Shown one piece after another: positions 5,802-36,646 of a stretch of 42,514 bases of DNA (its first letter is position 1; each line of letters opens with the position of its first letter). The position numbers and the translations under genes are program-made. Source of the DNA: a virus; the IMG/VR virus record IMGVR_UViG_3300042328_000531, positions 1 through 42,514 of that record, one strand, 5' to 3'. A model generated the notes under the pieces. It was not told where the DNA came from. It was given only the letters and a program-made list of their open reading frames with translations, and searched no databases.

Positions 5802-6947
5802 TTAGGAATCTGAAGCAGCGTCAGCGAATGCAATTGCATCCTGCTCTTCCCATTGAAGTCCGAAACGAACAAATACTGTGTATTCTACAGTATCTTTTTT
5901 CGCTACATATTCACGGTTTACTGTGATGTCTCTTTGGAAGCCCCATACACGGTTAGCAGGGAATGTTAAATCAACATATCCTGCTGGGTAGTAAGGAACT
6001 TCTTGTACGTCAACACCTAGAACACGAGTTGTACGTGCTCCACCGAATGTTTGACCAAGACCATCTAAGTAGTTTTGACGATTTGCTTGTGTGCTTCCTG
6101 GAACTTGTCCAGCAAAAGCCTCAGCAACAGCATCTGCAAGAGTACCATTGTTCTTAACAATACCTTGGAAAGCATCTGTACCAGCATAGAACTTTAGGTT
6201 CTGCTTGATAGCACGATACTTACGTGGCATTGCTAGAATGATGTCTTGCATAACTGGAGTTGTCCAAGCATTATCGGTAACTGTTACCTCTGCTTCGTGA
6301 GCATCTCCATCGGTTTGTACCTTGTGTACGAAACCTTCCATAATTGAAAGGAATGAGCCTGTTGATCCATCACCGTTAATGGCTAGATCTTCAATGTCAT
6401 TACCAAATGCGTTTGTCATAAGACGAACGATGTGGTCTTCAAGAGCAGCACCTTCGATATTATCTTCTAGTGCTTCTGCAGAAACTTCCCAATCTAGACG
6501 AATCTTCTTGGTTGTAAGTTCTACCTTACTGAATGTTGCTCCAGCATTGGTATAGTCACCAAGTGCTTGTGAAGCAGCACGAATTACACGCTCACCAACG
6601 TTAACTTTTTCAAGTTCCATTGTGTTAGCACGCATTGTTACACGACGGCCATCCTGTGCAAGTACTGTTGCGTCCCAAACATAGTCGATAAAACGACGTG
6701 CTTGTTCTGGACGAAGAATACCGCTACCAGCATCACCTGAAGGGTTAACTGCGTTTGGACCTGATGTCACTCCTGATAGTGCTGTTGGGATATTCCCAAT
6801 AACGCCACCATCGGAGTAATTGCCTGGTACGTTCGCTGCTGCGTCAGATCCTGATGCGAATGCGCCTTGACCCTGATAGAGTCCTGGAGCAGTGCCACCA
6901 ATGTTACCTGAAGTACCTGGCTGATTTTTCTTGATTTCTTCCGACAT
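5802..6947 (-). CDS. major capsid protein (HK97 fold)
   Basis: ATG 6947 is chosen because AGGAGG sits 7 nt upstream; a longer frame exists but would overlap the protease gene by many residues. The product has 381 residues. Residues 1-75 are Gly/Ala-rich and flexible, as in capsid N-termini. After that come GILRPEQARRFIDYVWD, a long strand pair and a helix with EDHIVRLMTNAFGNDIE, all typical of HK97-type shell proteins. It is preceded by the protease-scaffold gene and followed by a strong terminator. Confidence 0.9.
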   Translation of the reverse strand: MSEEIKKNQPGTSGNIGGTAPGLYQGQGAFASGSDAAANVPGNYSDGGVIGNIPTALSGVTSGPNAVNPSGDAGSGILRPEQARRFIDYVWDATVLAQDGRRVTMRANTMELEKVNVGERVIRAASQALGDYTNAGATFSKVELTTKKIRLDWEVSAEALEDNIEGAALEDHIVRLMTNAFGNDIEDLAINGDGSTGSFLSIMEGFVHKVQTDGDAHEAEVTVTDNAWTTPVMQDIILAMPRKYRAIKQNLKFYAGTDAFQGIVKNNGTLADAVAEAFAGQVPGSTQANRQNYLDGLGQTFGGARTTRVLGVDVQEVPYYPAGYVDLTFPANRVWGFQRDITVNREYVAKKDTVEYTVFVRFGLQWEEQDAIAFADAASDS

Positions 6948-8344: not shown

Positions 8345-9934
8345 TTATTGAGATGATCTACCCTCTCCTTTTGGATTTCTTCCAGATACGGTTGCAGGGC
8401 TATCTGATTGATTGTTTGTTCTTTCTGAGTCTCTTTGTCTATTTGTAGTTTCATTTGCTGTATCCTGTGGTTTTAATTGAAAAGGCTCATCTCCATAAGA
8501 AACCTGTGGCAAACCAAGTTGTTGTCTTGCCTCGTTTGGCAACAAGACTTGGCTTTTTACATATCTTTCAATAATCTGAGATTGAGCAATTTCATCTGTT
8601 AACGTTAACTCATTAAACTTAAACTCAAGAATATCTGTTTTTTCACGAATAATTTTATTTATCATTTTTTCTAACTGTCTTTGTGCTGGCCTAGCAACCT
8701 GTTCTTTAAATGTTCTATCTTGAGCCAAGGCTGCTGCGATTTGTGCTGAATCTGAACCGCCAAGTTTTGAAAGTGGTACTTGATGAGCAACTAGAATATC
8801 ATCACGATTTTGTTTTCTGTATTCTTTAAATGACCCGTCCTGAATTCCATTTTCAATTGGATTCATGCTAAATTCAACCTTATTGTTATCTGTATCGCCA
8901 GGAAGTGGTATATATAATGTTCTATGCGATTGTCCCTTAAGACTAGTCTGTAAAAATCTAAACATTTTATCTTCTGCGTCTGCAGACAGTTTGGCTCCCT
9001 TTAAAGTTACAACATATCTAGGTACAGCCTTATTAGAAAAATAATCAATATTATATTGAGATGCTAACTGATCGCCATGCAATGAAGATATAGCCGAAAT
9101 AATATCAGGAACACCATAAAACGTATTTAATGGAGAGTATTGTTTAAAATGAATAATTTCATTTGGCCTATTGTCGGCAGTTACTGGATTTGCATTCCTT
9201 GCTCCAAAGTTTCTAAAATAAACAACCTTGTTTGCAATAATTTGAACAAATCCATCTCTCATACGACGAACACGCATAGTGGTTGCTGGAATATGTCCAA
9301 CATATCCAATTTCTCCACGCACAGTTCTTCCTATTTCTAAGTATCCATTACCTATTGCTTGCACATCTGTATAAACTTTTTCCATTGTAGAAGTAAAAGA
9401 GTCATCATTATTTAAACTTTCTAGCCAGTCTGTTAATTCTATTTTTGATCGGTCAATTCTTTTACGTGCTCTTTCTGTGGCTCCGCTATCAATAGAGGCT
9501 TCTAGTTTTAACATGGTTCTAGGAGATATTTCAAACTTATATCCCAAACCAACAATGTTTTCTACCTTAGCATCAATTGCAGCATGATTAGCAAAAGAAG
9601 TATCATAATAGTTTGCCAACTCGTAAACATTCCATGGGGGAGTAATGACATCAAATAATCCATAAGCGTTTCTATACAAGGTTCCTGGATTAATTTCTTT
9701 TGATTGTGCTCCGTTAATACCTGAATTAACTGCGAGAGCGCTATCCATGTATGCTGGAGAGGCTTCGACTTTTGACATTCTAGAAGCACGACGTTTAAAG
9801 TTATTGTCTAAACCAGATAAATTTTTTAACTCATCCCATGTCTGATTAAATGGATCACTTTTTTTAAATTGATTGTCTTCCTCTAGTAATTCATCAATTC
9901 TTGCGCCTAATCTATATTCTTTTTCTTCGCTCAT
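8345..9934 (-). CDS. portal protein
   Basis: A 529-residue protein of the siphovirus portal type. It contains a long helical stem region and the familiar segment with YLEIGRTVRGEIGYVGHIPA, then a loop with LHGDQLASQYNIDYFSNKAVPR, and a C-terminal part with RDDILVAHQVPLSKLGG. The C-terminal 50 residues are polar and disordered. The dodecameric portal is the DNA entry channel of the prohead. The XkdF-type protease and capsid follow in the normal order. Its start overlaps the preceding stop (TAATG). No terminase large-subunit gene precedes it, which is unusual. Confidence 0.88.
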   Translation of the reverse strand: MSEEKEYRLGARIDELLEEDNQFKKSDPFNQTWDELKNLSGLDNNFKRRASRMSKVEASPAYMDSALAVNSGINGAQSKEINPGTLYRNAYGLFDVITPPWNVYELANYYDTSFANHAAIDAKVENIVGLGYKFEISPRTMLKLEASIDSGATERARKRIDRSKIELTDWLESLNNDDSFTSTMEKVYTDVQAIGNGYLEIGRTVRGEIGYVGHIPATTMRVRRMRDGFVQIIANKVVYFRNFGARNANPVTADNRPNEIIHFKQYSPLNTFYGVPDIISAISSLHGDQLASQYNIDYFSNKAVPRYVVTLKGAKLSADAEDKMFRFLQTSLKGQSHRTLYIPLPGDTDNNKVEFSMNPIENGIQDGSFKEYRKQNRDDILVAHQVPLSKLGGSDSAQIAAALAQDRTFKEQVARPAQRQLEKMINKIIREKTDILEFKFNELTLTDEIAQSQIIERYVKSQVLLPNEARQQLGLPQVSYGDEPFQLKPQDTANETTNRQRDSERTNNQSDSPATVSGRNPKGEGRSSQ

Positions 9935-13967: not shown

Positions 13968-14567
13968 TTAGCGATTTTCCCAGAGTGGATTTCCCCAATA
14001 TATATCGTCATATTTTAAACCTGGATATGGAGATTGACCAACTGGAGCATTCCAAAAATCAGAGATAAACATATTTCCATCTTGTACAGTAGTAATTTCT
14101 CTTGCAAAATCTTTATTTTCTGGGAAAATTATACAGTCTCCAGGAATTAAATTTTTCCCTATTTTATAGTTTTTAAATTTAAAAAGCCCGCCGTCATAAG
14201 AGTCGTTCCATTTGACTATGGATCTAAATACATTATTAGGCCTGTCTACGTTATAACTCATTTGCATCCCATTGCCAGAGGTATATCTAACAATATAACT
14301 TTTTCCGAGTATTGGTGGATCATAAAAAACTTTATTGATTTGACTCACGGCTCTTTGAATTGCTACAGTATACTTTTCAAATATATCTACTATTTCTTTT
14401 GTCATGTCTCCATATGTAGTTATATCAAAATTAATACCATCTTGATTAAATAATGGATCATGAAGTGGAATATGATTGTCCTTGGTATTAAATTTTACAG
14501 AATTTACAAAGTCATCTATTAACTTTAAATCTTCTTTTGTTGCAACGTTAATAATTTGATATGTCAT
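13968..14567 (-). CDS. 2OG-Fe(II) oxygenase-like protein lacking iron ligands
   Basis: The start at 14567 is preferred because its ATG overlaps the stop of the adenosyltransferase gene (ATGA); an upstream ATG at 14582 is possible. The 199-residue product follows the prolyl-hydroxylase-like fold: FRSIVKWNDSYDGGLFKFKN then LIPGDCIIFPENKDF. The H-x-D motif reads N106-V-D108, the distal His is missing in the FPENKDFAREI block, and the 2OG-binding Arg position holds Met. It therefore looks non-catalytic, unlike five related proteins in this window. It may be a structural or binding derivative; a regulatory partner of the B12 operon is conceivable. Confidence 0.55.
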   Translation of the reverse strand: MTYQIINVATKEDLKLIDDFVNSVKFNTKDNHIPLHDPLFNQDGINFDITTYGDMTKEIVDIFEKYTVAIQRAVSQINKVFYDPPILGKSYIVRYTSGNGMQMSYNVDRPNNVFRSIVKWNDSYDGGLFKFKNYKIGKNLIPGDCIIFPENKDFAREITTVQDGNMFISDFWNAPVGQSPYPGLKYDDIYWGNPLWENR

Positions 14568-15058
14568 GTTTTTGGTATCCATAACTTTTCATTTCCCTTG
14601 CTGTGGTATCTTGCCATAACAAATAATAAATCTGAAAGCCTATTTAAATATTTAGGAATATTAATGTTAACTCCTTCTAATTTCCAAACCTGACGCTCTG
14701 CTCTTCTAACAATAGTCCTAGCATTATGCAAAGGTCCTGTAGGCAATATAAAAGAATGAAGCGGTTCTAGATATTTGTTATAATCATCAATAATATTTTC
14801 TAAATAAACAATTCTTTCTTTATGTATCTTTATTGTTGGCGCTCCCGCAAGTTCTGCTCCAAGATCAAACAAATCACTTTGGATTCTATCTATAATGTCA
14901 TTATGATATTCTGTTGCCATTCCAATAGCAGAGTTTGCTTCATCTACTGCGCCAATTGCTTCAATTAAAGTACTACTTTTATCTATTCTTTCATTTGTAG
15001 CAGTAGAAGTTTTTCCATCATCGCCAGTTTTTGTATATATACGAGTTAAGTGAACCAT
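14564..15058 (-). CDS. cob(I)alamin adenosyltransferase, PduO type
   Basis: The start at 15058 overlaps the preceding stop (TAATG); an upstream ATG at 15082 would overlap that gene by 25 nt. The 164-residue product has the family signature TKTGDDGKTS (residues 9-18), the ATP-binding helix, the RTIVRRAERQVWKLE block and NRLSDLLFVMAR near the end. This enzyme class attaches 5'-deoxyadenosine from ATP to cob(I)alamin, making adenosylcobalamin. It sits two genes from a class II ribonucleotide reductase, which uses exactly that cofactor. Length and motifs are complete. Confidence 0.9.
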   Translation of the reverse strand: MVHLTRIYTKTGDDGKTSTATNERIDKSSTLIEAIGAVDEANSAIGMATEYHNDIIDRIQSDLFDLGAELAGAPTIKIHKERIVYLENIIDDYNKYLEPLHSFILPTGPLHNARTIVRRAERQVWKLEGVNINIPKYLNRLSDLLFVMARYHSKGNEKLWIPKT

Positions 15059-15222
15059 TAGTGTCCCGTCAAAGAACGCCAAATATCAACTGTAAATTTA
15101 TTAGCCATATAAAGTGCAGATAAATTTATAATTAATTGAAAAATATACTGTATGGCTTTAGGCTTATGTTTTTGTAGTGGAAACTCTATAACGTTATCTA
15201 ATGTTTTGTATGCTAATTTCAT
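15058..15222 (-). CDS. small single-pass membrane protein
   Basis: A 54-residue frame missed by length filters. Its ATG overlaps the stop of the DUF4430 gene (ATGA) and its stop overlaps the start of the adenosyltransferase (TAATG), so it is coupled on both sides and almost surely translated. Residues 24-45 (IQYIFQLIINLSALYM) form one hydrophobic helix between charged ends. It could anchor a complex that moves cobalamin from the secreted binder to the adenosyltransferase. No family recognised. Confidence 0.75.
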   Translation of the reverse strand: MKLAYKTLDNVIEFPLQKHKPKAIQYIFQLIINLSALYMANKFTVDIWRSLTGH

Positions 15223-15671
15223 GGGAATATAACCTTTCCGTTATTGGCCCAAACTAATCCAATAGAATCTCCTGGATTTAACAACTGCTGATCGACCGCT
15301 AATTGTCCCCAACCCCATTCATTAGTTGGAAAAGGAACTTTTTGTTTTTCTTTAACTATAAGTGCCCAGTATGCATTTTCTGGTGGCATTGTTTCACATG
15401 ATTCCATCATTTGATTTGGAAGCCCATTAACTCTACATACCACACTAAGTCCATACTTTTTAGTTCCTTCTATCTTAAGATTAGCCTTTCTTAAAATATC
15501 TAATGCGGTTGTATCTTTAGACGCTTCTATACATTTTGTTATTTTTGTTTGATTATTTAAGACACTATAATCAATATAAAGATTAACACAATCACTATTT
15601 GATTTAGTTATACTTTGTAAACCAGCAAAAACTAATAAAAAAATTGCTGCTGATATCAATATTCTTTTCAT
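15219..15671 (-). CDS. secreted transcobalamin-like protein (DUF4430)
   Basis: A 150-residue protein with an N-terminal signal/anchor helix (ILISAAIFLLVFAGL, residues 4-18), then one DUF4430-like domain. Supporting segments are TALDILRKAN, a VCRVNGLPN strand, the WALIVKEK strand and the LNPGDSIGLVW ending. DUF4430 is the fold of the C-terminal cobalamin-binding domain of transcobalamin. Its position directly between a B12-dependent reductase and an adenosyltransferase supports a role in capturing cobalamin at the cell surface. Cys28, Cys47, Cys80 and Cys92 could make disulphides outside the membrane. Binding itself is inferred. Confidence 0.72.
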   Translation of the reverse strand: MKRILISAAIFLLVFAGLQSITKSNSDCVNLYIDYSVLNNQTKITKCIEASKDTTALDILRKANLKIEGTKKYGLSVVCRVNGLPNQMMESCETMPPENAYWALIVKEKQKVPFPTNEWGWGQLAVDQQLLNPGDSIGLVWANNGKVIFP

Positions 15672-17713
15672 TTGCTATTTTCCTTTACTGTTTTAATTTC
15701 ACAATAATCTGTAGTGCAATACATTTCTCCTTGAGCCTCTAAATTATCCACTCCATCATAAATTGCAGACCAATCAATCTTTGCAATTTTACCAACATAA
15801 GATTCATACTCTTCTTTACTTATTTCGTTATATGGTTGTTGTGGATAAACCTCATTGCCCATAGGCAAGAAAGATACTGCCTTAAGTTGTCCTTCATACA
15901 TTTGCAATGCTGGAGCAACAAACTTACTCTCATCTTCTTTATTAAACGACAAGGTTACAGAAACTCCATTGTCTGACCAATATTTTTGAGCAGTTGCTGC
16001 TAAACCAATTTTTTCAAAAAGACTTACATCTTTTTCAGATCTTGGATGTCCAGATGCTATTGGGAAATATACCACTGAAGTATTTGCTGATACTAGATCT
16101 GCTTCAATCTTATATCCCGCTGCTTTAAATAAATGAAGCATTGGGTCTGTATTTCCAAATCTAACAGCACGTAAATAAAATGGACCTCCAGGACCCCAAT
16201 GAACTCCAGGAGTTGCTCCAGATAATAAAGAAACAGATCCAGAAGGCTTTACAGTTGTTACACGAATTGATTCACGTACACATAGCCATTCTGAATATGA
16301 ATGATCATATTGACGAATTTTATTGTATCCTTCATCCATCCATTCACGTAATGCTGGCATTCCTTTAGTATCAGCGAATGATGCAATACCTGTTAATGAT
16401 GTTCCAATACGACGATTACGCTGCATAATTCCATTTGTTGTTTGCCAGTGTGTTGGAAGAAGTGTAACTGCCTTTCCATATAAATAAGCAAACTTTAATG
16501 TACGTAAAAAATCTTCTTTATCTTCATGACGATTTAAATGAACCTCTACCAATGTACAAAGTTCGTAAGACTCCAATGGTTGTTCTGCACATGGATTAAA
16601 TCCCATAACACGATAATCTTTCCCATCAGCGGGATCTGCTAAGCGTCCATAATTACGAGCAACATCAAGCCAAATAAAACCTGGCTCCCCATTGTTTGAA
16701 ATTAAATCAACATAATCTTCGTATTTTGTTCCAACTTTTGCATCAATAGAATTATTAGACATCCAAGCCCAACCTGGTTTTGCTGGATCGTAAGAATTTC
16801 TTTCTGGAAATATTTCTGGATTTTTTAAATTAATAAAAATATCATCTCCTGCAGTTCCTAATGCAAGGGTAGCGGAACGACGAACATTACCAGCAACAAC
16901 ACATGTTCCAATAAGATTTATAATATCTACAATTGCTCTACTATCTAAAATATCTCCTACTCTAGAACCGATTACGTTACGTATACGTCCATGCAAATCT
17001 TTTAATGGTTCTGGACCACTAGCAACACCTCCAAATCCTTTTATTGGGGCTCCTAGAGGCCTTATTAGGTCATAATTAAACTCTTGAATGGGTTGATTTG
17101 CCCTAAGAAATGAATTAATTAATAGTCTGACAGATTCTACCCAACCTTCACGAGTATCTGGAATTTCATATATAGATGGTGGCTCTGTTGGTGAATAAAT
17201 TAACATTTCTTTATCTTGACCTAAAGTGTCAAATCCAACACCTATGCCTAACATTAGTGCATCCATTACCCAAGCAAATAGTGCTCCTGGATCATTACGA
17301 TCAATATCACGAGTAGATACCATTGCACAGTTTTGTAACGAAGCAGAATTTCTTTTTTCCATAGTCATGGGAGTTCCAAAAGCCCATAAACCTCTACCAG
17401 GAGGTGTCCATTTTAAATTAAATAAACGATCAAATGCTTCTTGTGCAGATTTCTGGGCCTTATAGTCATTCCACGGGAGTCTATTTTCTTTCGCATGATT
17501 TTTTTGTACTGAGTACATTCCTTCAATTACGCGTTTGCAAACCTCATACCATCTTTCTTTAGTCCCATCTTCTTTCATTCTAGAATATGTCCGAATAAAG
17601 GTGACCTCTCCTAAAGAATTAGTAGCAGCATCTTTAAAACCAAAAGGAGGTTCTGTTTTTTTATAACTGTCTACGAAATCTGATGATAATTTAAAAGAAA
17701 AAAAGTCTGACAT
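15668..17713 (-). CDS. nrdJ: class II (adenosylcobalamin-dependent) ribonucleotide reductase
   Basis: A 681-residue monomeric class II reductase. The radical Cys375 lies in NPCAEQPL with Glu377; the partner cysteines are Cys129 (QNCAMV) and Cys386, so the 375-386 spacing equals that of the Lactobacillus enzyme (408-419). The C-terminal redox pair Cys666/Cys671 (YCTTDYC) has the normal spacing of five. The enzyme makes deoxyribonucleotides without oxygen or a second subunit, using adenosylcobalamin. It has a promoter (17772-17745) and a TAGGAG ribosome site, and begins the B12 operon. All catalytic residues are present. Confidence 0.96.
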   Translation of the reverse strand: MSDFFSFKLSSDFVDSYKKTEPPFGFKDAATNSLGEVTFIRTYSRMKEDGTKERWYEVCKRVIEGMYSVQKNHAKENRLPWNDYKAQKSAQEAFDRLFNLKWTPPGRGLWAFGTPMTMEKRNSASLQNCAMVSTRDIDRNDPGALFAWVMDALMLGIGVGFDTLGQDKEMLIYSPTEPPSIYEIPDTREGWVESVRLLINSFLRANQPIQEFNYDLIRPLGAPIKGFGGVASGPEPLKDLHGRIRNVIGSRVGDILDSRAIVDIINLIGTCVVAGNVRRSATLALGTAGDDIFINLKNPEIFPERNSYDPAKPGWAWMSNNSIDAKVGTKYEDYVDLISNNGEPGFIWLDVARNYGRLADPADGKDYRVMGFNPCAEQPLESYELCTLVEVHLNRHEDKEDFLRTLKFAYLYGKAVTLLPTHWQTTNGIMQRNRRIGTSLTGIASFADTKGMPALREWMDEGYNKIRQYDHSYSEWLCVRESIRVTTVKPSGSVSLLSGATPGVHWGPGGPFYLRAVRFGNTDPMLHLFKAAGYKIEADLVSANTSVVYFPIASGHPRSEKDVSLFEKIGLAATAQKYWSDNGVSVTLSFNKEDESKFVAPALQMYEGQLKAVSFLPMGNEVYPQQPYNEISKEEYESYVGKIAKIDWSAIYDGVDNLEAQGEMYCTTDYCEIKTVKENSK

Positions 17714-17744: not shown

Positions 17745-17772
17745 ATTATAACAGAGTTTTGCCAATTGTAAA
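17745..17772 (-). promoter_or_regulatory. promoter of B12/reductase operon
   Basis: TTTACA (17772-17767), 16 nt, then TATAAT (17750-17745), ending 31 nt before the reductase start. The leader is too short to hold a cobalamin riboswitch, so no B12 control at RNA level is visible. Confidence 0.65.
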
Positions 17773-17798
17773 ACTCTATATACAGTTAAGGTATAGAG

Positions 17799-17928: not shown

Positions 17929-18573
17929 TTAAAGAATACTCCATTTATTAGGAATAACTCCAATTAATTTATTTAATGGGGTAATATCATATGCAATAGT
18001 AATTCTTGGTTTATCTTCAAACCAATCATCTCTGCCATGAGGATGTCCAGTTTCTGAAAGAATTGCCCTATTATTTTTATTAATATTTTCAAATATGTTA
18101 TTTTCATCTTTATTTATTTGATAAAATGTTGATGATGGCTCTGCATTTACACAATAATATCCATGAAACCATGGTGCGCCAAATCCTTGTGAATGATCGT
18201 GAAAATGTTCTGGTTTTTTAATTGGCGAGACAATTCCATTATCACTTTTATAGTCTAAATTAAACCAACCACGAATTAAATATTTCTCTTTATTAAAATC
18301 TATATCATAATAATCAGATGCTTCTTTTGTTAAAGAGCGTAAAGCCAATTGTAATTGATATATTTCTTCATTAGCAAAACTAAAAATATTGTAATGGTCT
18401 ATTCCTAGCCAAGTCATCATTCCGTGTTTTCTTGGATATTTATTTAATGTGATATCAGGTAAATTTAAAATATTTTGACCTAAAAACTTGTCTTCTATGA
18501 CTAGTAAATAATCATATAATTCTTCTAAATTATTCTCTAGAACAACATCAAAAAATTTGTGAGGCTTTTTCAT
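17929..18573 (-). CDS. 2OG-Fe(II) oxygenase, tandem copy 2
   Basis: The ATG at 18573 overlaps the stop of the paralogue upstream (ATGA); one further ATG at 18600 would give nine more residues. The 214-residue product carries His125-Asp126 in HFHDHS, the APWFHGYYCVNAEP block, His177/His179 in ETGHPHG and Arg190 in RITIAYD, the iron- and 2OG-binding set. It is clearly homologous to the next gene (HKFF start, WFHGYYC, ILSETGHPH). These enzymes hydroxylate proteins or small molecules using 2-oxoglutarate and oxygen. Substrate unknown. Confidence 0.7.
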   Translation of the reverse strand: MKKPHKFFDVVLENNLEELYDYLLVIEDKFLGQNILNLPDITLNKYPRKHGMMTWLGIDHYNIFSFANEEIYQLQLALRSLTKEASDYYDIDFNKEKYLIRGWFNLDYKSDNGIVSPIKKPEHFHDHSQGFGAPWFHGYYCVNAEPSSTFYQINKDENNIFENINKNNRAILSETGHPHGRDDWFEDKPRITIAYDITPLNKLIGVIPNKWSIL

Positions 18574-19214
18574 GCTAAAGGTATCCAATGTTGCTCCCAT
18601 TGATGCATGATTCCTCTAAATGGAATTACATCATAAGCAATGGTTATTCTTGGTCCATACCAGTCCCAATTCCCCATAGCATGTGGATGTCCAGTTTCAG
18701 ATAAAATAGCACGATTATTTTTATTTATATTTTCTACTTCTTCATTAAAAACTTTATAGTGCGTTGTTGATGGCTCAGCCTGAACACAATAATATCCATG
18801 AAACCATGGTGCGCCTTCTCCGCCATGTTCATGCCAATCTAATTTTCCAACATTATTGTAGTTAATATTAAACCATCCTTGTATCCAAAAATCTTCTTTT
18901 TCAAAATCAATTCCGTAATGATCACATGCTTCAAGCGTCATAGATCTTACTGATCTAAATAATTTATGAATTCCAGGATGATAAAATTGAAATACGTTAT
19001 ATTTGTTCCATTTGCTAGTTGTTATGCTGCCAGACTCATCCCAGGGAGTTTGCTCTCCATTGTCATATTTTAATATTTGTCCCGCTTCAATTCTTTCATA
19101 TTGAAAAATAAGGAATTGCGATAAATCAACAATATTATTATCTAAAGTTCTTTCAAAAAATTTATGAGAAGTAGCACTTTTACTTGTACTTTCAATATTA
19201 CTATTTCCGTACAT
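18570..19214 (-). CDS. 2OG-Fe(II) oxygenase, tandem copy 1
   Basis: A 214-residue paralogue of the following gene. Iron ligands are His128 (DWHEHGG) with Glu129, the distal His176 or His178 in ETGHPHA, and Arg189 in RITIAYD binds 2-oxoglutarate. AGAAAGGAAAT gives a good ribosome site before ATG 19214. Tandem duplication has produced two enzymes that keep the same motifs, which suggests separate substrates or an obligate pair. The pair has its own promoter, upstream of the Cys-rich microprotein and reductase. Confidence 0.72.
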   Translation of the reverse strand: MYGNSNIESTSKSATSHKFFERTLDNNIVDLSQFLIFQYERIEAGQILKYDNGEQTPWDESGSITTSKWNKYNVFQFYHPGIHKLFRSVRSMTLEACDHYGIDFEKEDFWIQGWFNINYNNVGKLDWHEHGGEGAPWFHGYYCVQAEPSTTHYKVFNEEVENINKNNRAILSETGHPHAMGNWDWYGPRITIAYDVIPFRGIMHQWEQHWIPLA

Positions 19215-19335: not shown

Positions 19336-20049
19336 TTAACGGAAGTTTGGTGGAGAAAAACCAAATGGTGTAAATCCAAAGGCGCCGAATGGTGTAAATC
19401 CAAAGGCTCCGAATGGTGTAAATCCAAAGGCTCCGAATGGTGCAAATGAGAATGTTGTTGTTACGTTTGCAGAGTAACTAGAGAATGCAGAATCTCCATT
19501 AGCATTTGTTGCTTTAACACGATATGCTTGTGTGGTTCCTTGTTCCTGAGAAACTGTTACTGATGTACCACTTGTAGTTCCACTCTTTGAGTCATTTGAT
19601 TCCCAAGTATAACCAGTAATTGCTGTACCTCCATTTGCTGGGGCTGACCAAGATACGCTATCATTTCCTGCTGAAGGTGAAGATACGCTTGGTGCAGAAG
19701 GAGTTGCTGGAACAGTTGTAGCAGTAACAGCAGAAGCACTTACGCCTGCTGTTTCAGCATATGCATCATAAGCCTTAACTGTAAATGTATATGATGTATT
19801 GCTTGAAAGACCAGTAATTTGTGCAGTGCTTGTTGGATGAGTAATAGTGGCCTTTAGTGTGGCACCATCATACACTTTGTATCCTGTTGGTGTATTTCCT
19901 GTGCTTGGATTTGTCCAAGATACATCAATTCTTCCGTCATTGAATGCACGACCAGAACCTACGTTGGTGGATGTTACTCCAGTTACATTATTTGGTCCAA
20001 TAAAGTTATCCTGTGCGGAAGACTTTGTACCTTTTCTTACTGTTGCCAC
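19336..20049 (-). CDS. FN3-domain virion protein with FGFTPFGA tail
   Basis: A 237-residue protein that starts with GTG after AAGGAGACAAT. Residues 24-110 and 112-196 are two fibronectin type III domains (the second ends in AYRVKATNANGDSAFSS). The C-terminus is a tandem repeat of the eight-residue unit FGAFGFTP followed by FSPPNFR. The same ending, with a different body, occurs in the PASTA-like protein at 29180-29512. It is the last gene of the long fibre block and may be a decoration or adhesion protein. Confidence 0.7.
   Translation of the reverse strand: MATVRKGTKSSAQDNFIGPNNVTGVTSTNVGSGRAFNDGRIDVSWTNPSTGNTPTGYKVYDGATLKATITHPTSTAQITGLSSNTSYTFTVKAYDAYAETAGVSASAVTATTVPATPSAPSVSSPSAGNDSVSWSAPANGGTAITGYTWESNDSKSGTTSGTSVTVSQEQGTTQAYRVKATNANGDSAFSSYSANVTTTFSFAPFGAFGFTPFGAFGFTPFGAFGFTPFGFSPPNFR
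19364..19435 (-). repeat. 24-bp tandem repeat coding FGAFGFTP
   Basis: Three near-identical 24-bp units (19364-19387, 19388-19411, 19412-19435) and a partial fourth encode the aromatic tail. Near-identity at DNA level points to recent copy-number change. Confidence 0.85.
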
Positions 20050-20073: not shown

Positions 20074-21651
20074 TTAAGCGGTTAGATCTCCAAGAACTAC
20101 CCAAGTATCTGCTGCACGCTTGAATAGCGTTGCAGATGACCACTGAGTACGTAATTTTAGACCTGGAGTACCGTTAACAGTAACTCCACCAGCGCCAGCA
20201 ATTGTTACCTGTCCAGCGCCAACCTGTAGTACATCAATTGATGTTCCTATTGGGAAGTTCACGCTTGAATCTGCTGGAATAGTAACTGTTGTTGAAGAAG
20301 CACTACCTACTTCAATCAAATCATCTCTTTCAGTTAAACTTGAAAGTGTGTATGATGCTGACTTAGATATAATTGTTGTTTGTGATGGAATACCTTCTTT
20401 TGTCTGAGTTCCGTCTGAGAATGCTACACCACCTGATGCGGTAATAGCATTTGCTGATTCAAGGGCTCCAACTGAGAGGGTATCAAGAGACGCTGCTGTA
20501 AAGTCTACAACAGTTGCAGGCTCAACAGTCAAATCTTTAAATAGTTTCCACTTACCATCTGTAACGTCTTTAACGATACCAGCATGCTTTGAGGAACCAT
20601 CGTTATATCCTACAACAAGGCCTAAGTCTGTTATATTGTTTGCATTATCATGACCTAATTGTAGAAGTGTGTCTTCAATCTGAATCTGTGTTGCAGACAC
20701 AAGAACGTTGCTTCCGTTTACAATGAAGTTTCCGTCTACTGTAAGGTTGTGATCAATTTCTACTGAGCCAGTAAATGTTGCTCCAGATAGTGAAGCCTTT
20801 CCGTCAATTTGTGCTTGAACGTTAGATGTAACTCCATCTAAGTAACCAATTTCTGTATCTGAAACTCCAGCAACTTTATCTTGCTTATTTCCAAGATCGG
20901 TTGTTAAACCTGAAATCTTAGATTGTGCAATTGCTGCGGTGTTAGAAATATGAGAATTATTAATTGCCTCATCTGCAATGTGTTCTGCTGCAATTGAATC
21001 ATCAGAAATCTTTGAACCATCTACTGCATCTGCACCAATTTTTCCATTGGTTACCGCACCAGTAGCAATTTTTGCTTCTGTTACAGATGCATCAATAGGA
21101 TTTCTTTCGTTTGTTAATGTTACATCATTGTTATAAACTAATGCTGCTGTATTTGAGATACCATGTGCATTTAAAGTTAAATTAGCATGGGTTGTTAAAT
21201 TGTTTGCATTGGTTTCATTTCCTGTTTCTAATGTTCCAATATCTGTAAGTGTGTTTGATACGAAACCGTTATAATTACTTATATGACTGTCAAGACTATT
21301 ACCTACGCTAGAGATATTTGCCTGAATACTGGTAAAGGTGTTTGCTACGTATGCTGAATAACTAGCATCATCATTAATTGCTGCTGCCAATTCATTTAAT
21401 GTGTTTAATGCATTTGGGGCACCATCAATTAAATTACCAATTGCTGTATCTACTAAGCCTTGAACTTCTGATGAGTCAAAAACTATAGAAGCATCTACGA
21501 AGTATGCTAGGCTGGACCATGCGCTTGATCCATTACCTACTTTAAATTTATTTGTATCGGTTTCAAATCCGATTTCACCTGCTGCCAATGTAGGGTTTGC
21601 TGAAGTCCATTGTGCTGCAGTTCCTCTGCGCTGTTGCATTCTTGTTGCCAT
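20074..21651 (-). CDS. tail fibre protein (fibre A)
   Basis: A 525-residue trimeric-type fibre. Residues 1-50 (TRMQQRRGTAAQW, AAGEIGFETDTNKFKVGNGS) are the short phage fibre N-terminal domain seen in many tail proteins. Residues 55-260 are coiled/helical repeats including a DGAPNALNTLNELAAAIND segment shared with fibre B. The last about 70 residues (PIGTSIDVLQVGAGQVTIAG, GVTVNGTPGLKLRTQWSSAT) form a domain shared with the protein at 29512-30132. Likely host recognition. A promoter with TATAAT at 21683-21678 and GGAGG site precede it. Confidence 0.75.
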   Translation of the reverse strand: MATRMQQRRGTAAQWTSANPTLAAGEIGFETDTNKFKVGNGSSAWSSLAYFVDASIVFDSSEVQGLVDTAIGNLIDGAPNALNTLNELAAAINDDASYSAYVANTFTSIQANISSVGNSLDSHISNYNGFVSNTLTDIGTLETGNETNANNLTTHANLTLNAHGISNTAALVYNNDVTLTNERNPIDASVTEAKIATGAVTNGKIGADAVDGSKISDDSIAAEHIADEAINNSHISNTAAIAQSKISGLTTDLGNKQDKVAGVSDTEIGYLDGVTSNVQAQIDGKASLSGATFTGSVEIDHNLTVDGNFIVNGSNVLVSATQIQIEDTLLQLGHDNANNITDLGLVVGYNDGSSKHAGIVKDVTDGKWKLFKDLTVEPATVVDFTAASLDTLSVGALESANAITASGGVAFSDGTQTKEGIPSQTTIISKSASYTLSSLTERDDLIEVGSASSTTVTIPADSSVNFPIGTSIDVLQVGAGQVTIAGAGGVTVNGTPGLKLRTQWSSATLFKRAADTWVVLGDLTA

Positions 21652-21677: not shown

Positions 21678-21683
21678 ATTATA
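21678..21683 (-). promoter_or_regulatory. -10 box of fibre A
   Basis: TATAAT lies 26 nt upstream of ATG 21651, followed by the TTGGAGGAAAT ribosome site. Confidence 0.55.
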
Positions 21684-21691
21684 ACAGACTT

Positions 21692-22147
21692 TTAGTTAAA
21701 GTTATCAACTGCAGTGCCACCATCATAAGTTAAGTCCCAAGAAGATGTTGACGGTGTACCGCCATCTGCTGGTGTGCCTTGTGGTGCATTATAAAAACCA
21801 CTAGATACAAATTGACTTACTATAAATCCAGTTCCATCAATCGCTGTATCGTGAATGTGGTCTGGAAGACTTAATGTATCATCTACCGCTGCCTGTGTAT
21901 ACCATGTTCCGTTATAGTAAACATTAACTCTTGATGTTAATGTATCAAACCATAGTTGTCCATTAGATGGTGATGATGGTGCTGTATTTCCTACTGGCAT
22001 ACCACCAGTTAAAGCATCTACATATCCCTTAGTTGTAGCATGTGTAGATTCTGTAGGAGTGGCAACAGTAACTGTGCCTCCAAATGTACCGCCAAGTGTT
22101 ACGGAAAGTCCGTTCTTGACTTTGAAGTCTTTATTTACTGTTGCCAT
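21692..22147 (-). CDS. fibre-associated protein, MATV-type N-terminus
   Basis: A 151-residue protein whose first 14 residues (MATVNKDFKVKNGL) match those of fibre B (MATVAKDFKVKNGL). The following region resembles cyanophage-type tail fibre adaptor segments (ATTKGYVDAL, then NGQLWFDTLTSRVNVYYNGTW). The shared N-terminal tag suggests both dock to the same site on the tail. The C-terminus is Gly/Thr/Asp-rich and likely disordered. Confidence 0.65.
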   Translation of the reverse strand: MATVNKDFKVKNGLSVTLGGTFGGTVTVATPTESTHATTKGYVDALTGGMPVGNTAPSSPSNGQLWFDTLTSRVNVYYNGTWYTQAAVDDTLSLPDHIHDTAIDGTGFIVSQFVSSGFYNAPQGTPADGGTPSTSSWDLTYDGGTAVDNFN

Positions 22148-29179: not shown

Positions 29180-29512
29180 CTATCTAAAGTTTGGTGGTGC
29201 AAAACTAAAAGGAGTGAAACCAAAGGGAGTGAAACCAAAAGGAGTAAAACCAAAAGCACCAAATGGAGTAAAACTAAAGGTATAATTTACTAAATTTACG
29301 GTTGTTCCTAGTGCAACAACATTTCCACTTGGAATGCTTTGACTTTTAATCGTATTATTTAGTCCATTATCTGCTGTATTTTCATTTGTTGTGGAGTAAT
29401 TAATTCCTAATGCGGATAAAGTAGACTCTGCTGTTGTTTTATTCTGACCAACAACATTTGGAATTGTTGCCCTTCTAAAAATTTTATTTCCACGGCCAAT
29501 ATTTTTTGCCAT
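29180..29512 (-). CDS. PASTA-like virion protein with FTPFG tail
   Basis: The ATG at 29512 is favoured because it overlaps the previous stop (TAATG). The 110-residue product begins with a PASTA-like unit (IPNVVGQNKTTAESTLSALG, then SIPSGNVVALGTTVNL), a peptidoglycan- or wall-binding fold. The C-terminus repeats FGFTP four times and ends in APPNFR, as does the FN3 protein. PASTA plus a common tail suggests a virion component that attaches to cell wall. Confidence 0.68.
   Translation of the reverse strand: MAKNIGRGNKIFRRATIPNVVGQNKTTAESTLSALGINYSTTNENTADNGLNNTIKSQSIPSGNVVALGTTVNLVNYTFSFTPFGAFGFTPFGFTPFGFTPFSFAPPNFR
29202..29261 (-). repeat. 15-bp tandem repeat coding FGFTP
   Basis: Four near-identical 15-bp units encode the five-residue pattern GFTPF; the unit length differs from the 24-bp array at 19364 although the motif is the same. 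Confidence 0.8.
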
Positions 29513-30132
29513 TATGTAGTCAAGTCTCCCATTGCCACCCAAGTATCTGTAGCACGTTTTACTAAAGTTGCACTAGACCATTGTGTTCTTAATTTTAATC
29601 CTGGAGTTGAGTTTACAGTTACACCAGATGCTCCTGCGAGTGTTACTTGAGAAGATCCTGTTTGTAAAATGTCAATCGCTGTACCTATGGGGAAAGCAAC
29701 AGAACTATTTAAAGGAATAGTTAATGTTCCTCCCGCTGACATCTCAACCATTTTAAAAGAATCAGCAATTGTTAATGTATAGGATGAAGATTGTTGGTTA
29801 AAAGAATATACTGGATCTGTGATAGATTGCCAGGTAGAGCCATCATATACTTGTAAATCATTAATTGTATTACCAATTGCATCTTGTTTTAAAAATACTA
29901 CTGTTCCATAAATTGGAGAAGGAATTGCAGTATTTCGAGCAGAAGGATTAAGAAAAATATTAAGATTTTTAGCAATTACTGTAGATGCAAAAGTTACCGA
30001 ACTAGAAAAGTCTTGTGAAGATGACCAAGTATAAGAGGCAGCGGTATTTACTAATCCGCCAATAGGATACCATTGGCTTGTTGCTTCATCGTAAACATAT
30101 GCTGGTCTTGAAGTAGAATTAATTGCTGCCAC
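29512..30132 (-). CDS. fibre protein sharing fibre A tip
   Basis: A 206-residue protein starting with GTG overlapping the previous stop (TAGTG). Residues about 140-206 (AFPIGTAIDILQTGSSQVTL, then STPGLKLRTQWSSATLVKRA) match the end of fibre A almost residue for residue. The N-terminal part (AYVYDEATSQWYPIGG, DFSSSVTFASTVIAKN) differs. The shared domain is therefore a mobile tip module. Confidence 0.7.
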   Translation of the reverse strand: MAAINSTSRPAYVYDEATSQWYPIGGLVNTAASYTWSSSQDFSSSVTFASTVIAKNLNIFLNPSARNTAIPSPIYGTVVFLKQDAIGNTINDLQVYDGSTWQSITDPVYSFNQQSSSYTLTIADSFKMVEMSAGGTLTIPLNSSVAFPIGTAIDILQTGSSQVTLAGASGVTVNSTPGLKLRTQWSSATLVKRATDTWVAMGDLTT

Positions 30133-36256: not shown

Positions 36257-36646
36257 ATGATATTTCACAAACACCTACTTGTTAATGCCAAAGTAGAAAA
36301 TCCTATCAATACCGAAGAGCAAGGCGTTGATTTCCTTACCCGCCTAGTTGAAAGTATTGACATGAAGATTATTAAAGGACCTTTTGCGTCCTATGTTGAC
36401 AAACCAGGAAACCGAGGACTTACTGCTATCGTAATGATAGAGACTAGCCATATAGCATTTCATATATGGGATGAGATGGATCCATCGCTAGTTCAGTTTG
36501 ATTTGTATACCTGCGGAGAATTAAATCTCGCTAAGGTTCTTCTTGCTTTTGGAGAAACCTTTAATATTGTAAATCTTGATTATCAATTATTTGATAGAGA
36601 AAATGGATTTGTATTAGAAGATAAGGGCTCTTGGCCAGAAATCTGA
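36257..36646 (+). CDS. SpeD-family pyruvoyl decarboxylase
   Basis: A 129-residue AdoMet decarboxylase-family protein. The self-cleavage Ser64 lies in ETSHIAFH; His69 and Cys86 (YTCG) are the other active-site residues, matching Ser63/His68/Cys83 of the Thermotoga enzyme. The protein would cut itself at Ser64 to make a pyruvoyl group. Classical members decarboxylate S-adenosylmethionine for spermidine synthesis; some phage and bacterial homologues have been reported to act on arginine or ornithine. Substrate cannot be told from sequence alone. Confidence 0.82.
   Translation: MIFHKHLLVNAKVENPINTEEQGVDFLTRLVESIDMKIIKGPFASYVDKPGNRGLTAIVMIETSHIAFHIWDEMDPSLVQFDLYTCGELNLAKVLLAFGETFNIVNLDYQLFDRENGFVLEDKGSWPEI

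Follow-up and report, generated by a model that had tools for sequence, protein, structure and literature searches.

The window analysed here, the whole 42,514-nt stretch of IMG/VR record IMGVR_UViG_3300042328_000531 (a linear viral record of 42.5 kb with a GC content of 34%), carries a four-gene cassette that we consider likely to be a phage module for the acquisition, activation and use of vitamin B12 (cobalamin). In the 5′ to 3′ direction, the cassette encodes a class II ribonucleotide reductase (RNR), a 150-residue protein proposed to capture cobalamin, a 54-residue one-helix protein and a PduO-type adenosyltransferase. This reading draws on the family identities of the two enzymes, a transcobalamin-like fold match, co-inheritance and coupling of the genes, purifying selection, a strict terminal motif and bacterial analogues. 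An earlier note on this DNA had listed the four genes and interpreted them as a route from cobalamin capture to deoxyribonucleoside triphosphates (dNTPs); all four open reading frames (ORFs) are indeed open, and all lie on the minus strand:

15668..17713, minus strand: class II monomeric NrdJ/RTPR-type (RTPR, ribonucleoside triphosphate reductase) RNR, 681 residues, assigned from Pfam, PHROGs and its cysteines relative to PDB 1l1l
15219..15671, minus strand: proposed cobalamin-capture protein, 150 residues, with a transcobalamin-beta-like predicted fold and a hydrophobic N-terminus
15058..15222, minus strand: 54-residue one-helix protein ending in IWRSLTGH, with one hydrophobic segment and an invariant motif
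14564..15058, minus strand: PduO-type ATP:cob(I)alamin adenosyltransferase, 164 residues from ATG 15058, assigned from PF01923 and TIGR00636

Reductase and adenosyltransferase

The reductase matched PF17975 (E 2.5e-32; 111.8 bits, cut-off 26.4), PF21995 (E 3e-13; 50.4 bits, cut-off 27) and phrog_367 (E 2e-138), and scored 337.5 bits on TIGR02505, slightly below the cut-off of 340.05. Residues Cys129, Cys375, Cys386, Cys666 and Cys671 align with conserved cysteines of the Lactobacillus leichmannii RTPR (PDB 1l1l, E 2.8e-93), which agrees with the catalytic cysteines recognized previously. Judged by these sequence matches, the protein is a class II, monomeric, adenosylcobalamin-dependent ribonucleoside triphosphate reductase. 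The 164-residue protein, already proposed to be a PduO-type enzyme, can clearly be assigned as one from its family matches: PF01923 (E 2.8e-47; 161.4 bits, cut-off 24) and TIGR00636 (147.6 bits, cut-off 108.45) both score above their cut-offs, the best PDB match is a corrinoid adenosyltransferase (2g2d/6wgs, E 1e-31), and the YTKTGDDG, VDE, ER and YLNRLSDLLF blocks are invariant in the alignment. The chemistry of the two enzymes, together with these clear family matches, links the RNR to the adenosyltransferase. The nearest cellular adenosyltransferases are proteobacterial, but they came from a search driven by exact peptide patterns and are not evidence of ancestry.

The RNR gene overlaps the 150-residue gene, and the latter overlaps the 54-residue gene, by 4 nt in an ATGA junction. 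The earlier note had described overlaps of 4–5 nt at every junction, which holds for these two but not for the third, where the one-helix and adenosyltransferase genes meet in TAATG and share 1 nt. That junction follows from a start at ATG 15058, which is most likely the correct one, rather than at the TTG 15082 chosen before.

The proposed capture protein and the one-helix protein

The 150-residue protein has a hydrophobic N-terminal stretch (Kyte–Doolittle value 2.2) and belongs to a family with four invariant cysteines; it is proposed to be secreted or N-terminally membrane-anchored. No family could be assigned to it from Pfam, PHROGs or NCBIfam, a PDB sequence-profile search with the family alignment returned chance matches only, and a profile search of genome contigs with the same alignment found no relative. 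Structure prediction was more informative. The top PDB match of a first AlphaFold2 model (predicted local distance difference test, pLDDT, 74) in Foldseek was the beta domain of human transcobalamin (5no0). A second model covered the mature part of the protein; it was built from 35 sequences and reached a pLDDT of 88 and a predicted template modelling score of 0.80; the two models draw on overlapping sets of relatives and are not fully independent. Against 350,542 PDB chains, the best seven Foldseek matches of the second model were all transcobalamin (E 1.5e-3 to 9.6e-3, probability 1.00), and the next match had an E-value of 0.045. Comparison of the capture alignment with an alignment of Clostridia DUF4430 domains using hhalign gave a match that was weak but in register (P 0.005); the corresponding values for the two negative controls were 0.34 (reversed) and 0.87 (adenosyltransferase).

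The models thus support a transcobalamin-type fold. The predicted fold resembles the beta domains of transcobalamin and intrinsic factor (PDB 5no0, 2bb5 and 7qbe; TMq 0.49–0.60 in the better model), whereas the phage protein lacks their alpha domain, is 14–17% identical to them and carries its four invariant cysteines; cobalamin binding is a prediction. The description of this protein in the earlier note, as secreted and DUF4430/transcobalamin-like, is therefore retained as far as the fold is concerned but not for membership of Pfam DUF4430 (PF14478), which did not match the window protein at E≤1.

The 54-residue protein likewise has no family match in Pfam, PHROGs or NCBIfam. In a set of 54 non-identical versions (21–54 residues long; the lowest value probably stems from a partial call), and likewise in versions from divergent contigs, the C-terminus is invariably [I/V]WRS[L/M/I/F][T/R]GH followed by the stop codon, and the median dN/dS of the gene is 0.27. 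Retention of the motif merely as a ribosome-binding site for the adenosyltransferase gene was rejected, since the motif codons differ synonymously among relatives and [I/V]WRSxxGH is intact in loci that lack the adenosyltransferase. The lysine-rich N-terminal half suggests, by the positive-inside rule, that the N-terminus lies inside and the C-terminus outside. With its strict terminal motif, the protein appears to represent a new, undescribed small-protein family.

Conservation, cellular counterparts and proposed mechanism

In scans of viral contigs, the adenosyltransferase had 194 relatives and the 150-residue protein 143, and the junction of the one-helix and adenosyltransferase genes was recovered in 100 stretches. 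The four-gene order, which the earlier note had suggested looking for in related phages, is shared by over 70 related viral contigs. Neighbours were counted in the 80 top-ranking contigs that carry the 150-residue gene; these are the closest 80, and the counts describe the window's own group. The one-helix gene directly follows the capture gene in 79/79 testable contigs, the adenosyltransferase gene follows the one-helix gene in 75 of 78, and all 76 that could be tested for it encode a class II RNR immediately before this trio or with one gene in between, which indicates that the order is not due to chance. Within close groups, adenosyltransferase identity is 78–93%, and that of a neighbouring structural gene drops to about 43%. 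All three small genes have low dN/dS, indicative of purifying selection. Some contigs are informative exceptions: in two contigs (L129 and L131) the trio accompanies a class II RNR just 28% identical to that of the window, in L103 and L138 an extra gene (WhiB in L103) separates the RNR and capture genes, and L225 and L252 do encode an RNR, but at a distance from the trio.

Cellular homologs of the capture protein, found in actinobacteria by tblastn against plasmid records, occur beside cobalamin genes. In Arthrobacter, a gene for a homologous lipoprotein overlaps one for a fusion of EcfT and EcfA, components of energy-coupling factor (ECF) transporters; this is followed by a gene that by eye resembles an ECF S-component (without a Pfam match) and by a divergent metH. 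The Arthrobacter homolog (tblastn 7e-11) has the Cys and YW positions of the phage protein and is of the actinobacterial SCO2321/SCO2322 type. It matches SCO2322_fam weakly, a model that the phage proteins fail (best 0.027), and it is accompanied by ECF components, unlike the phage set. In Embleya (L371), two homologs adjoin RF00174 cobalamin riboswitches (86.8 and 32.2 bits), with metE and an SCO2321-related, transcobalamin-alpha-like toroid protein in the same neighbourhoods; the riboswitches, at 6595-6815 and 9480-9616, adjoin metE and the pair of alpha-like toroid and beta-like genes. This pair suggests a split bacterial transcobalamin-like system.

A closer parallel to the whole cassette is found in a Bacilli genome (L360), where RTPR, the B12 importer subunit CbrT, a DUF4430 protein and PduO are encoded in a single run. 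The S-component matches structure 6fnp (E 9.5e-17), which we take to be the ECF-CbrT entry, a B12 transporter structure. Lactobacillus delbrueckii has a nrdJ-cbrS-cbrT-pduO cluster, and its ECF-CbrT has been shown to transport B12 (Santos et al., PMC5997447). Like the phage set, both bacterial operons combine a class II RNR with PduO in one run, and in L360 a 142-residue, N-terminally anchored DUF4430 protein between the B12 S-component and pduO mirrors the phage middle genes. Unlike these operons, the phage set lacks the six-helix S-component CbrT and has the 54-residue one-helix protein in its place, and the phage capture protein, in contrast to the L360 protein, falls outside Pfam DUF4430. 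By this analogy, the cassette parallels a known bacterial arrangement in which the small protein replaces the S-component, and an uptake role of the phage middle genes may be inferred. The interpretation of the earlier note, from capture to dNTPs, is thus supported by homologs in ECF and cobalamin-riboswitch loci, by the RTPR-CbrT-DUF4430-PduO operon and by the L. delbrueckii cluster.

A mechanism is proposed in which, during infection, the transcobalamin-beta-like protein of the phage, which stands alone, would be exposed on the outside of the host membrane. The one-helix protein would act as its partner, probably likewise presenting its conserved C-terminus to the outside. The pair would catch a corrinoid and pass it to a B12 importer of the host; in the closest cellular counterparts, such an importer is of the ECF type. 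Adenosylation of cob(I)alamin by the PduO enzyme of the phage would follow in the cytoplasm, and the adenosylcobalamin so formed would serve the class II RNR of the phage in supplying dNTPs for replication of the genome.

The surface pair could instead serve superinfection exclusion, by occupying or masking a host B12 uptake complex that the phage uses as its receptor, next to an RNR and adenosyltransferase that form a genuine activation-use pair. Some phage proteins are known to block the receptor of their own phage, the small size and surface location would fit exclusion proteins, and one contig (L248) retains the one-helix gene directly 3′ of the RNR without the capture and adenosyltransferase genes. 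Such a device has no need to track cobalamin enzymes, however, and the surface genes travel with the adenosyltransferase gene at the frequency given above, also in loci away from the RNR; moreover, the cellular homologs resemble uptake genes. We give exclusion only a slim chance.

Several observations weigh against the acquisition-activation-use reading itself. The cassette encodes no importer, so that its earlier description as a "full" capture, conversion and use set was too strong. Pfam DUF4430 matched neither 21 relatives of the 150-residue protein at E≤10 nor anything in the whole record, and the NCBIfam SCO2322 model (NF040672, cut-off 85 bits) failed on 35 phage members (best E 0.027). 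The Foldseek E-values of the capture protein were never below 1e-3, its cobalamin binding is a prediction, and the hydrophobic segment of the window's 54-residue protein is weak (Kyte–Doolittle value 1.2). The set is also not obligate: the adenosyltransferase gene is missing from three cassettes (L126, L130 and L132), and a class II RNR was not detected on cassette contigs of 60, 80 and 86 kb. These RNR-less contigs would fit a trio whose main service is not to the phage RNR but to B12 retention in general or to other B12 enzymes of the host, such as MetH; the metH gene adjoining the actinobacterial homolog would fit as well. The contigs may be incomplete, however, and the RNR stands directly or one gene upstream in every testable member of the window's group, which leaves service to host enzymes improbable. 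Both this explanation and exclusion are less likely than capture, import, adenosylation and use. That the 150- and 54-residue proteins are mere hitchhikers in a nucleotide-metabolism cluster, with no role in B12 metabolism, would accord with their lack of a Pfam assignment and with cobalamin binding as a prediction, but is very unlikely: the modelled fold matches transcobalamin, cellular homologs occur in cobalamin loci, a bacterial operon mirrors the cassette, the genes are under purifying selection, and the trio is retained alongside two class II RNRs of widely different sequence.

Flanking sequences, probable host and significance

Outside the four genes, three further features were noted:

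17745..17772, minus strand: promoter-like site 5′ of the RNR gene, TTTACA-16-TATAAT with an extended -10 (TG), 11/12 matches
17753..17777, no strand assigned: inverted repeat AGAGTTTT-N9-AAAACTCT over the promoter-like site, a possible operator; present once in the window against an expectation of 0.01
13968..14567, minus strand: downstream gene outside the conserved core (phrog_2297, E 1e-6), missing from many cassette loci

The downstream gene is also coupled to the adenosyltransferase gene by ATGA. The promoter-like site is the best of 26 in the scanned region, a number equal to the mean of shuffled sequence, and of the 41 distinct upstream regions from relatives, 36 have a -10 element of the TGnTATAAT type before the RNR gene, compared with 5% by chance. 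A near copy of the promoter element AAAACTCTGTTATAAT, with one mismatch, lies at 21678-21693 (minus strand) just 5′ of the gene at 20074-21651, and this promoter type is therefore not unique to the cassette. Repeats resembling AGAGTTTT-N9-AAAACTCT also occur 5′ of the RNR gene in L003, L012, L046 and L067; in another group of relatives, the palindrome is not the same one but about AGTACTTTA...TAAAGTACT, and it lies 3′ of a -10 element at about -71. To judge from the sequences, both could be operators. An Rfam riboswitch search of the window found none.

Further upstream, two overlapping and apparently related minus-strand genes (17929-18600 and 18570-19214) match one and the same place in L027; they encode His-rich motifs, have no Pfam match and stand just 5′ of the cassette in some relatives. 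The minus-strand genes 19336-20049 and 29180-29542 encode different proteins that nevertheless share FTPFGAFGF-type repeats and a terminal PPNFR. The product of 36257-36646 (plus strand) by eye resembles S-adenosylmethionine decarboxylase, and a similar protein is encoded near the cassette in L288.

The host group is likely to be actinobacteria, as indicated by WhiB genes of relatives and by the portal and RNR similarities: the portal is about 46% identical to those of Streptomyces phages, and the RNR is 61% identical to those of Mycobacterium phage Gaia and Actinomycetia phage DSL-LC01. WhiB genes lie within or beside the cassette in L103 (1558-1872) and L273 (1106-1426), both confirmed by Pfam, and a WhiB-like ORF was recognized by eye in L303 (17218-17595), on a contig without an RNR. 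Gaia and DSL-LC01 share the class II RNR with the window, but the capture, one-helix and adenosyltransferase genes are missing beside theirs; small proteins encoded 3′ of the DSL-LC01 RNR (L140) resemble those that follow the cassette in L103.

Among INPHARED phage genomes, the window capture protein had no match at E≤1 and a divergent member had a single partial, chance-level match. The INPHARED matches of the adenosyltransferase (34–42% identity, mostly short unannotated records) were not taken as cassette-bearing isolates, because the capture protein matches nothing there. A search of the open-access literature found no report of a phage cassette combining adenosyltransferase and RNR or of the four-gene set. 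A wastewater study lists a cobA adenosyltransferase among viral genes (PMC11183165), and a 2023 study of marine RTPR viruses left enhanced B12 uptake as a possibility (PMC10547690). Phage class II RNRs and bacterial nrdJ-cbrT-pduO operons are already known, whereas their combination in a phage appears to be new.

A more specific and rather doubtful suggestion is that the 54-residue protein founds a new class of minimal membrane adaptor, in which the outer-face [I/V]WRSxxGH motif docks the capture protein, or its terminal histidine ligates the cobalt of cobalamin, thereby coupling the pair to the ECF B12 importer of the host. If so, the phage would reprogram vitamin uptake by its host without a transporter of its own. 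Stand-alone transcobalamin-beta-like proteins, encoded near ECF transporters, metH and cobalamin riboswitches, are also pointed to as parts of bacterial B12 uptake. If the acquisition-activation-use reading is correct, a virus could raise the supply of a scarce vitamin in its host, and the cassette offers concrete genes with which this could be tested in viruses that probably infect actinobacteria.

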